A stretch of 34,504 bases of DNA from Coriobacteriia bacterium (GTDB taxonomy: Bacteria; Actinomycetota; Coriobacteriia; Anaerosomatales; PHET01). The stretch lies in the NCBI GenBank assembly GCA_009779675.1, contig WRDS01000010.1, positions 1-34,504 on the forward strand, in the 5' to 3' direction. Position 1 is the first letter of the stretch; every line of letters starts with the position of its first letter. Both the position numbers and the translations under genes were made by a program. The notes beneath the pieces are model-generated. The model saw only the letters and a list, made by a program, of their open reading frames with translations, made no database searches and was not told the origin of the DNA. Shown piece by piece: positions 28,201 through 31,092 of this stretch.

Positions 28201-30875
28201 GTGCCGAGCACGACGAGCCCTATCGCGCCGGCAGATCCCTTGACGACGACCCCGGGCTCGATGGCAAGCCTTCTGTTCGCAGGGACGGTCACTGTTGAGT
28301 TCAGGACATACGGGCTCCCTGAGACCGTCCACGTCGTGTCTTGGGATATGGTGCCGCCGACAGGTGTTGTCGGGGGAGGCAGCACTGAGAAGGTGGTTTC
28401 TGCAGACCACTCCCCCCAGAGGGGCACGCCTGGGGCCGTGTCGCAGGCAGCGCGCACCTTGGCGTAGTAGGTGGTCCCTGCCACGAGGCCGCCTGGCGGC
28501 TGGGGGACGACGGTGCCGGTGTCGCTCCCTGAGCCGGGCCTTGAGGCGATGGCCGGGCCTGCCGGGGCAGCCGCGACCGCGACCTCCCAGGCCGACTGGG
28601 CGATGAGGTCCGGCTGCGCGTATGTCCAGGCGGCCTTGGGCGGCGGCATGGAGCCTACGGCCCCTGACGGGGAGGTGAGCTGGGCCGTCGGTGCCGTGAC
28701 CGGGAGCGGCACCGTGAACGTGGCCTCGTCCCACCCGCCCCAACGCAGGTACGGGTAGTAGTTCGTGCCCTCGCCTGCGTCATAGGCGACGCGCACACGG
28801 GCGTGGTAGGTGGTGCCGGGGACGAAGCCGCCGTGCGGCTCTGGCACAGGGATGCCTGAGTTGCCGCTGTCCTCGCCTGATGCGCGGGCGACGGTCGAGG
28901 CGCTCTCAGCGCCCGTCTGGACCCTCGCCTCCCAGGCCGCCTGGGGGATGTTGTCCTCCTGGTAGTAGCCCCACTCGAGCGTCGGGCTCGCGGGCTGGCT
29001 GCCCGAAGGGGACGTTATCTGGGCCTCTGGGCGTGCGGGCATAGGCGCGTCGGCGTAGACGGCCTCCCATACAGGAGCGCAGGCGCTGCTGCCTGCGTTG
29101 AACTCGGCATATGTGCCAGGCCCCGCCGAGATGCGCACCGCCTCGTCGCCTGACATCTGCCACTCCATCACCATGTCGGTTATGTCGAGCGCGTGGTGGT
29201 AGCCGTAGTCGTTGTTCCAGTCAGGCCCCTGCATGAGGTCTGCCTCTGGTGACGCGTGATCGCTTGTGACCTGCCCCTCGCCGTTCATGTAGCCGTTCCA
29301 GGTGAGCCAGTCCAAAGGCGGCGTGTAGCCCTCGCACGCCTCGGCCGTGACGAACCCCGGGCCGTCCACATAGCCCCCGTAGAGCCAGAGCCTCGCCTCG
29401 GAAAGCGAGTAGCCCGGCGGGACCCAGTAGCCGGTGAAGAAGGATGCGGGGGGCCTCAGGTAGGCGTGCTCGGTGATGCCTGATGAGAGGTATCCGTCGC
29501 TTGCCCACACGTAGTCGCACCAGCTGAAGTTCGAGTCCTCCCAGCCAGGCGCCGAGGAGACGGTGGTGGAGAGGACCTCCCAGGGATCCGCCTGGTAGCC
29601 CACGAAGTAGAGGCTCGGGTCGATGCGGCACGGGTACACGCGCCCGGGGTCTTGGAGCCACGCGCTGTCCGCGACGACGCTTAATATACAGCCTGATGAG
29701 GTGACGCCGGAGAGCCCGTAGCGGACGGCACGCGAGAGCGAGCCCCTCGTTTTTGGCTTTGCAGAGTCCTCCATGTAGGGCGCGGGGATGACGAATACCG
29801 TGTCGTCAGTGCCCGTCTTCGTGAATGTGACCGAGCCGTCCTCCTGGAGTGCAGGGGCAAGGCCGTCAAGCCCGAGCCCGAACGACCATATGTGCTCGCC
29901 GTTGCTTGGTGCGCGATCAAGCACGATCGTCTCTTTGAGCCCTCTGGGCGTTGACCGGTACTCGAGCGTCGAGCCGATGAACGCCTGCGGGTATGAGAGC
30001 GTGGCATCACCGTCGGGGCGTGCGGACACGATCCCCTCAGACGCATGCGCGCCGCCTGGGCGCGCCGATGAGGCCGGCCGCATAAAGACAGACGTGCCGG
30101 ACGCCTCGATCGTCACCGGGGCCTCGGAGAGCGAGGCCGGGAGCGTTATCGTGAACGCGTTCGCCGCGTTCGTCCAGGACGCGGGTGCCTCCCCCTCGCC
30201 CTCTGTCCTCTCAAGCGCCGTGCCGACCGGCTCCAGCCTGCCGGTCTCAGGGTCTGTGAAGTTCAGCGGCACGCTGGAGTACTGGGCCCGTATGTTGCCG
30301 TTGCCCATCCGGTACTCGCGGCTGAATAGTGTGCGGTTCTCGGTGATCTCGGTTGTGGCGTAAGGTGCGGGGGCCTGCGGCCCGTCAGGCGTGCCCTCAG
30401 CCGGGGCGGCGGATGCCTCGGAGGCTGAAAAGACCGACGACCAGAGCGCCTTTATGCGGGATATGAGCGACGGTTTTGATGCCGGTCGCAAAAGGGTGGT
30501 TTGCACGCTTTCTTGCGTGCCCGCCTCAGATGATGGTGACGAATGCGCCTCCCCTTCGGGCGGCGCAGCATACGCGGCTTGGACGGCAAAGGGGCTCAGG
30601 CCTTTGAGCGCGGAGCAAAGGGCGGGAGCGGGCCTGGCTGCCTCAACGGCCGCTGGGGCCGGGGCGGGCGCGCTTTGCGCTGAGGTTGCGAAGGATCCGG
30701 CGAACGCGTGGGATGCCGGGCTTAGTGCGAGGACAAGGACGAGGGCTAGAGGGACCAGGCGCGGTCGGCGGCGGGCATTCGTTTCACGGGCCACAGGCGC
30801 TACAGCAGGCACCGCCCACCTCACGGCCTTAGCTCTCTCTCTCTCCCTCTCTCTCTCTCTCTCTCTGCGCGCCAC
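25290..30875 (-). CDS. Giant secreted beta-helix protein with C-terminal matrixin-type metalloprotease
   Basis: 1,861 residues if started at GTG 30875. A basic lead coded by a (GA)n tract gives alternating Arg-Glu; a signal peptide follows (LVPLALVLVLALSP, ending SHAFA near residue 60). Next come an RHS/wall-protein-type prefix (about 175-395, ending YPCRIDPS), a DNRLRE-like segment (400-600), two fibronectin-III-like modules (about 610-830), and three beta-helix units (about 838-1100, 1105-1345, 1348-1665), each opening with a GTLDAQGTxExPIVFTSI-like block. The end is a zinc protease with HELGHCLGLYH (1817-1827) and a Met-turn DDLMYG (1830-1837), as in matrixins. It probably acts at or outside the cell surface; no sortase motif or membrane anchor is seen. 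Start choice is uncertain: GTG 30875 has no ribosome-binding site, and GTG 30824, just after the tract, would give a normal signal peptide. Confidence 0.85.
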   Translation of the reverse strand: MARRERERERERERAKAVRWAVPAVAPVARETNARRRPRLVPLALVLVLALSPASHAFAGSFATSAQSAPAPAPAAVEAARPAPALCSALKGLSPFAVQAAYAAPPEGEAHSSPSSEAGTQESVQTTLLRPASKPSLISRIKALWSSVFSASEASAAPAEGTPDGPQAPAPYATTEITENRTLFSREYRMGNGNIRAQYSSVPLNFTDPETGRLEPVGTALERTEGEGEAPASWTNAANAFTITLPASLSEAPVTIEASGTSVFMRPASSARPGGAHASEGIVSARPDGDATLSYPQAFIGSTLEYRSTPRGLKETIVLDRAPSNGEHIWSFGLGLDGLAPALQEDGSVTFTKTGTDDTVFVIPAPYMEDSAKPKTRGSLSRAVRYGLSGVTSSGCILSVVADSAWLQDPGRVYPCRIDPSLYFVGYQADPWEVLSTTVSSAPGWEDSNFSWCDYVWASDGYLSSGITEHAYLRPPASFFTGYWVPPGYSLSEARLWLYGGYVDGPGFVTAEACEGYTPPLDWLTWNGYMNGEGQVTSDHASPEADLMQGPDWNNDYGYHHALDITDMVMEWQMSGDEAVRISAGPGTYAEFNAGSSACAPVWEAVYADAPMPARPEAQITSPSGSQPASPTLEWGYYQEDNIPQAAWEARVQTGAESASTVARASGEDSGNSGIPVPEPHGGFVPGTTYHARVRVAYDAGEGTNYYPYLRWGGWDEATFTVPLPVTAPTAQLTSPSGAVGSMPPPKAAWTYAQPDLIAQSAWEVAVAAAPAGPAIASRPGSGSDTGTVVPQPPGGLVAGTTYYAKVRAACDTAPGVPLWGEWSAETTFSVLPPPTTPVGGTISQDTTWTVSGSPYVLNSTVTVPANRRLAIEPGVVVKGSAGAIGLVVLGTLDAQGTTETPIVFTSINDNTVGGATGNGSPVAGNWMGIRFQGSDSNASSLKHAEVRYAGASGRVDGGGVTGSYSTALLIGGAAQPALIESVVVTASAGNGVHILSGSPVLSSITQSGGSTGAAVDTSASPAITNSSFSNNTAYALSIGASATPTVTGCSLSSNAGTGLSIGAGAMPAVTSTAIDSNGSYAVVMHPNSTPALTGVTGTGNGRDLIRLTGTRTVATPLTLLAADAAFPYFGDFTIGEGAHVTAAAGAVFKGESYNDDQTFSQDYVHDALTVRGTFTSQGTPQKPVILTSINDHSPSAGGDTGSGTYPALRWGGVRFARGSASQSTLTNVEIRHGGGKVRSYIDGNPRSHYASLLIGWGAEPTVAGVKIEHSSNNGIEILHGSPTLTNITYSGSGTGLRIEGTASPMIEDSLFSSDSGYLAEINANSSPGFSNVKFDAGANSIRGFHIIGNRTVINRSLHLPDLGIPYVAGLTIGPGATVKIDPGVVYKHQTSGSESITVYGTLDAQGTPEKPIVFTSIHDDDFGGDTYNNGRVAPSAGDWVGVRFCGSAASSSILKNAHIRYAGRTASIGSPAFNASAGLLFVDGASPTVDGITVMRASGTGVLVHSSSPAVSHITQSGFNGPGAKTTYGIRLQEDASPVISGSRFEGNTYGLHAALGTSGMVGNSGFCENNYGVYALAGSSVTATGSIISTNTVSGIHIVGGTHSFQGCAINGNGASGFRVASSDATVTVTSSNLFENGTFWPWNVNLDVNASVPPTPTVNASGNYWGEYGPRFEETATANITNPQPIPNLVENLLYGEAVLWPNPFMNNINEVFIDNGHVNYKAEPASYNLEPDKTKYAHLVYPAASIWNGYKPGVIRETNGSDALFVKIYDYSDSSDTARAVTTASKPGTIKLNVYHLDSPSSSEGANTRTVAHELGHCLGLYHGNSTDDLMYGTSPGHYQPLTKNDKASYDAAYKLY
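30833..30866. repeat. Dinucleotide (CT/GA) microsatellite at the start of the giant gene
   Basis: On the plus strand (CT)6-CCCT-(CT)9, 34 bp; in the coding direction (AG)9-AGGG-(AG)6. Dinucleotide tracts of this length are rare in bacteria outside phase-variable genes. It lies between a strong Shine-Dalgarno/ATG (30907-30922) and the signal peptide, so slippage would change reading frame or ribosome-binding-site spacing. Confidence 0.9.
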
Positions 30876-30906
30876 ATGCCTGGCGCTTCGTGCATGCCTT
30901 CGTAAG

Positions 30907-30922
30907 CATCTTAAGACCTCCC
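30907..30922 (-). promoter_or_regulatory. Strong ribosome-binding site and ATG, out of frame with the giant gene
   Basis: GGGAGG (30917-30922) then 7 nt then ATG (30907-30909). Read from this ATG the frame passes through the GA tract and stops at TAA (30829-30831) after 26 codons. The distance from the ATG to the first codon of the main frame (30875) is 34 nt, so +2 or -4 bases (one repeat unit gained or two lost) would join it in frame to the 1,850-residue body. Confidence 0.75.
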
Positions 30923-31092
30923 GGGGCTAGAACCTGCGGCACCTGCTTTTTTGCATCTTGCTAAGCGGATCACTCCAGTGGTTGAGCTGAATACTACCAT
31001 TTCCGCCAACATCGCGCATAGATCACGCATCGCTAAGCAATAAAAACAATCGCTGATGACTGCCCGAGCCTGCATGGGCCACCAGGGCTGTT

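Follow-up and report, generated by a model that had tools for sequence, protein, structure and literature searches.

An AG-dinucleotide tract at the 5' end of giant secreted protein genes in a Coriobacteriia bacterium as a probable translational phase-variation switch

Repeat-driven phase variation has been studied mainly in host-adapted Gram-negatives and mycoplasmas. In switches of the Neisseria porA/opc type, poly-G tracts are located in the promoter spacer. In Helicobacter pylori, oipA is switched through a CT-dinucleotide tract in its signal-peptide region (PMC10564699). In Mycoplasma mycoides, mmyCI mod is off with 12 AG repeats; a clone with 10 repeats was in frame and active (PMC3498834). 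Within the Actinobacteria, homopolymer phase variation has been described in Gardnerella, and length variation was observed in colonies (PMC11287997). A literature search with partial coverage found no paper joining slipped-strand phase variation with the Coriobacteriia.

The locus described here is located on the minus strand of a 34,504-nt stretch of DNA (the window) from a Coriobacteriia draft genome. Read from position 30935, the minus strand consists of CCCGGGAGGTCTTAAG-ATG (30909), a leader, a 34-nt tract, CTAAGGCC, GTG (30824), and a signal peptide. A sequence-only reading had placed GGGAGG/ATG and (AG)9-AGGG-(AG)6 before the signal peptide of a protein of about 1.8 kilo-residues, and its coordinates were right when re-read. 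The features are as follows.

30917..30922, minus strand: strong Shine-Dalgarno (SD) GGGAGG of the upstream start; GGAGG-ATG is conserved in 4/4 tract-bearing paralogues.
30907..30909, minus strand: ATG start; at its present length the tract puts this start out of frame with the long ORF.
30867..30909, minus strand: leader from the ATG to the tract, 43 nt (MLTKACTKRQACGAQ...); 43/43/43/40 nt across the four paralogues.
30833..30866, minus strand: tract (AG)9-AGGG-(AG)6, 34 nt.
30829..30831, minus strand: TAA, the present end of the ATG frame, 4 nt 5' of the downstream GTG.
30821..30823, minus strand: TGA that closes the other off-frame; it overlaps the GTG as GTGA.
30822..30824, minus strand: downstream in-frame GTG (ATG in paralogues C45 and C28), a possible reinitiation start without a proper SD.
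30810..30812, minus strand: another in-frame GTG; a GAGG lies six bases 5' of it.
30699..30824, minus strand: signal peptide by translation, from GTG 30824 to ...SPASHAFA; region conserved in the paralogues, cleavage site by inspection.
25290..30875, minus strand: frame of the giant secreted protein, 1861 aa, from translation and Pfam domains.

The frame of ATG 30909 encodes MLTKACTKRQACGAQREREREGERES and then closes at the TAA just past the tract. The long frame is opened by the gain of one AG unit or the loss of two; with +2 or -1 units, the ATG frame closes at the TGA overlapping GTG 30824. The first TAA and the +1 or -2 rule had been claimed from the letters alone, and both stood when the frames were re-read. 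The same is true of GTG 30875, which is in frame with the 1861-aa ORF and was said to have no ribosome-binding site; a convincing SD was absent. The GAGG at 30822-30819 is the candidate SD of GTG 30812 (GATG in C45), and since this SD is kept in 3/4 paralogues, GTG 30812 is a further possible weak start. The tract is by far the longest dinucleotide run in the window; its pure stretches are 20 and 12 nt, and the next-longest run is 8 nt. A promoter scan of 30700-31300 showed no convincing promoter.

From GTG 30824 the protein has 1844 residues and ends at 25290. Pfam analysis identified an Ig-like domain and right-handed beta-helix repeats; at the C-terminus is a matrixin-like metalloprotease with HELGHCLGLYH, and the N-terminal module is conserved. 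The export signal is located directly 3' of the switch (signal peptide ...RRRPRLVPLALVLVLALSPASHAFA, by inspection). This signal peptide and the domains suggest a secreted or surface role of the giant protein, with the surface as its presumed location. The window protein was also searched for RHS repeats and DUF6531 (RHS/WapA-like) and has neither; beta-helix and M10 are found instead. The paralogue C45 ends in the same kind of protease; the paralogue C33, which lacks a tract, has CBM96, DUF6531 and RHS repeats, while CBM96 and DUF6531 are also present in the homologues L067 and L062. From these domains, the N-terminal part appears to be common to protease-tailed and RHS-tailed giants. In the tract-less RHS paralogue (L007, contig C33 of the window's genome) the start region is duplicated, with AAAGGACTTACTCATGTG twice in tandem. 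Another contig of the genome (L226, C63, 1-5607) opens partway through a giant protein that has RHS repeats and, at its C-terminus, a phage-tail-lysozyme-like domain; this might be the end that C28 or C61 lacks. The window's giant protein is followed directly by a 289-residue ORF (24410-25279, minus strand) with no Pfam or NCBIfam match.

The window's genome is a 1.89-Mb draft in 105 contigs (94% complete). It contains 45 overlapping matches to (AG)7, all at four places. By protein search, each of these places proved to be the corresponding 5' site in one of four paralogues (C10, the contig of the window, and contigs C45, C28 and C61); the AG tract is therefore not a chance repeat. All four share GGAGG, a well-spaced ATG, a leader of about 40 nt, the tract, C(T)TAAGGYC, an ATG or GTG, and a signal peptide; C28 and C61 run off contig ends. 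The tract is 34 nt in C10 and pure AG of 24, 52 and 42 nt in C45, C28 and C61, respectively. Over the N-terminal part the paralogues have diverged (dS 0.28-0.61, dN/dS 0.29-0.55) with their long frames open. Despite this divergence, three of the four tracts are pure, and that of the window has a single interruption. Both off-frames stop at most four codons past the tract in 4/4 paralogues; such double closure within four codons was found at 0/1545 codon positions of the window's own ORF. As assembled, each of the four copies is off, and all share one phase, the one closed by the TAA.

A search of 69 genomes of the order for the SD-ATG-(AG)8 pattern was positive only in the window's own genome (1/69). 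A protein scan of genome contigs revealed no named relative, and viral contigs scanned with protein and DNA gave no match. Two mononucleotide tracts were also observed in the window's genome: a G11 early in an oxidoreductase-like gene, in frame (L248, C78), and a G10 shortly upstream of a response-regulator-like gene (L245, C30).

The N-terminal part was searched in 61 genomes, and homologues were found in 23, the window's genome included. Nine loci identified by homology, in seven other genera, have a tract of G8-G10 (in one case C8) at the 5' end of the homologue. Some of these tracts lie between an SD-ATG and the signal peptide: G10 in G055 and G9 in G039, both out of frame, and G8 in G056 and in G036, both in frame. 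G056 and G039, of the same genus, are 43% identical over 864 aligned positions. In this genus (g31), one species has ATGGCTCATC-G9 out of frame versus ATGGCTTATC-G8 in frame in the other. Other tracts are located 4-5 nt before the start codon (L062, L064 and L241): G057 and G046 have G9 at this distance, and so does a second G046 copy, found via its tract and not by homology. Tracts also occur between promoter-like hexamers. In G002, of the window's own family, G10 and G8 (L073 and L083) are located in the layouts TTGACA-20-TAGGGT and TTGACT-16-TAGGAT; in G015 a C8 is placed similarly, with weaker hexamers. The poly-G homologue L078 has no start codon between its tract and the signal core, and thus its OFF state looks real. 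About 65 separate G8+ runs were counted by hand in 17.6 Mb (eight of the tract-bearing genomes). Approximately 0.02 such runs would therefore be expected in the 250-nt windows before about 22 homologues (an approximate number for those with a complete 5' end), and nine were seen. Before another secreted protein of G055 (L229, about 1964, minus strand), a G9 is located inside a promoter-like spacer, TTGACT-17-TACTGT.

MutS was not found in any of the 31 genomes of the order that were searched, that of the window being a 94%-complete draft; 11/14 controls were positive. NucS was not found in this draft or in the genomes of its three family members; the search was positive in 7/14 controls and in 2/13 searched genomes. 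In a background without MutS and NucS, slipped repeats would presumably be corrected less often.

These data indicate that the tract is probably a translational phase-variation switch of the slipped-strand type, as the sequence-only reading had proposed. That proposal has gained support from four diverged paralogues that keep the start-tract-double-stop module with differing tract lengths, from homologues of other genera with G8-G10 tracts at the same gene end, from the pair of G8 in frame and G9 out of frame within one genus, and from the searches of the window's genome in which MutS and NucS were not found. In the proposed mechanism, ribosomes would start at the strong ATG (30909), and replication slippage would alter the AG tract in 2-nt steps, moving the leader among three frames. 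In the ON frame, the leader would be fused to the signal peptide, and the N-terminal region of the giant protein would be lengthened by Arg-Glu repeats. In the other two frames, ribosomes would halt at most four codons past the tract, at the TAA or TGA (OFF). Both off-frame stops abut the downstream ATG/GTG, which is kept in 4/4 paralogues; the OFF state may therefore be leaky. Expression in the off phases could then be low but not null, if some ribosomes reinitiate at the adjacent GTG. Since at least four paralogous giants carry the module, a population could vary its surface-protein set combinatorially. The sequences show the module, its four copies with their different lengths and frame states, and the analogous tracts of homologues; that the tract slips within the species, that ribosomes use the upstream ATG, that the protein is on the surface and that switching is beneficial are inferred.

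Some observations count against the switch. The four copies share ancestry and do not represent separate origins. Free flipping would not be expected to leave all four copies in one off phase; the chance of any shared phase among four copies would be 1/27 under free slippage. The shared TAA phase points weakly to a mostly OFF population or to a selected role of this phase. Selection for OFF is not claimed from the four off phases, since zero ON among four copies has a chance of about 0.2 under free slippage. The GG interruption in the window tract should slow slippage, and the downstream ATG/GTG could permit expression without switching.

This downstream start is also central to a different explanation, in which the strong ATG translates a short Arg-Glu leader and its stop delivers ribosomes to the GTG/ATG at 30824. 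Such coupled reinitiation implies protein in all three frames; the tract would set the level and the N-terminal length of the protein, not an on/off state. The A/GTG kept in 4/4 paralogues, the off-frame stops adjoining it, the 4/4 copies in the TAA phase and the purifying selection on coding frames all agree with this. However, GTG 30824 has no usable SD, L078 has no start between tract and signal core, and stops behind the repeat in both off-frames are also found in mmyCI mod (PMC3498834). Coupled reinitiation is thus considered possible but rather unlikely. The tract might instead tune the mRNA structure or the spacing of the ribosome-binding site and leave the reading frame aside. The protein family does use spacing switches elsewhere, as judged from the G tracts before the start in L062, L064 and L241 and between promoter hexamers in L073/L083. 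The window tract, however, is located downstream of its strong start, and folding of the four leaders was no better than that of shuffles (z 0.1 to 1.0), which makes tuning improbable. A candidate RNA pairing of GGUCUUAAG with CUUAAGGCC in the leaders was rejected, the folding again being no better than shuffles.

The tract would be an inert microsatellite in the 5'-UTR if translation started at 30824 or 30812, and it would then be repetitive by chance and inherited through gene duplication. The strong SD-ATG is kept in 4/4 copies, the rest of the genome has no AG tract of this length, and in homologues other tracts have arisen at the corresponding end of the gene; such inertness is thus very improbable, although the four copies are paralogous and GTG 30812 has a well-spaced GAGG in 3/4. 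The genome is a draft of 105 contigs, and 2/4 paralogues run off contig ends, as might be expected of an assembly artefact or pseudogene. This explanation is hardly credible for a module found on four contigs with different flanks, with long frames intact and dN/dS below 1.

Beyond the proposed phase-variation switch in the window itself, a wider proposal can be made, but only tentatively. A three-state module (fused N-terminal region, stop before the downstream start, or overlapping stop) might control a family of giants, and this family might have repeatedly gained length-variable AG or G tracts at frame, start-spacing and promoter-spacing control points within one Coriobacteriia order. If this is true, expression of the giant-protein family would be a permanent object of randomisation, in a lineage without MutS. 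In this uncultured Coriobacteriia lineage four giant secreted paralogues carry the tract module at once; homologues of sister genera seem to arrive at an equivalent result by way of other tracts and other control points. They offer a natural comparison of how contingency switches arise. The present assembly would be a snapshot of an off phase, and the exact loci are given for counting tract lengths in metagenome reads.

A scan of public genomes for SD-ATG-(AG)10+ also revealed many genes in MAGs of uncultured Clostridia (Lapin-, BRZ_), with several genes in each genome. Among the Clostridia loci L104-L218 (e.g. L178, L137 and L142), the tract is followed by a prepilin-like N-terminus (GITLIALVVTIVVLLILAG) in 34. 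Of these, 6 were scored by script as in frame and 28 as out, and both off-frames are closed within six codons in 32/34. The proteins are unrelated to the window giant; the switch layout is the same. In the Eggerthellales UBA1419 (L094 1500-1560, and L185), an AG tract forms the junction between the two halves of a type I restriction specificity (hsdS-like) gene.

Comparison with the known systems shows both similarities and differences. Like the window gene, the surface-protein gene oipA carries at its 5' end a dinucleotide tract whose length sets the frame, with an early stop when out of frame. However, its coding strand has CT where the window has AG, and it encodes a Gram-negative outer-membrane protein; variation between isolates has been demonstrated for oipA, whereas the window tract is known from one genome in its genus. 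The mmyCI mod gene shares the coding AG repeats, the TAA directly beyond and the conserved stops in both off-frames; it is a DNA methyltransferase gene, with the tract inside the gene and not before a signal peptide. Gardnerella is also an actinobacterium with tract-length variation at surface-protein and other genes, whereas its tracts are mononucleotide and its class and proteins are different. The Neisseria porA/opc type resembles L073 and L083, in which G10 and G8 separate a TTGACA-like from a TAGG-like hexamer; this likeness holds for relatives in another genus and not for the window gene. The proposed mechanism is thus the classical one, already known; what is new is the lineage, the targeting of giant proteins, the presence of the module in four copies, and the mixed tract types and positions across one protein family.
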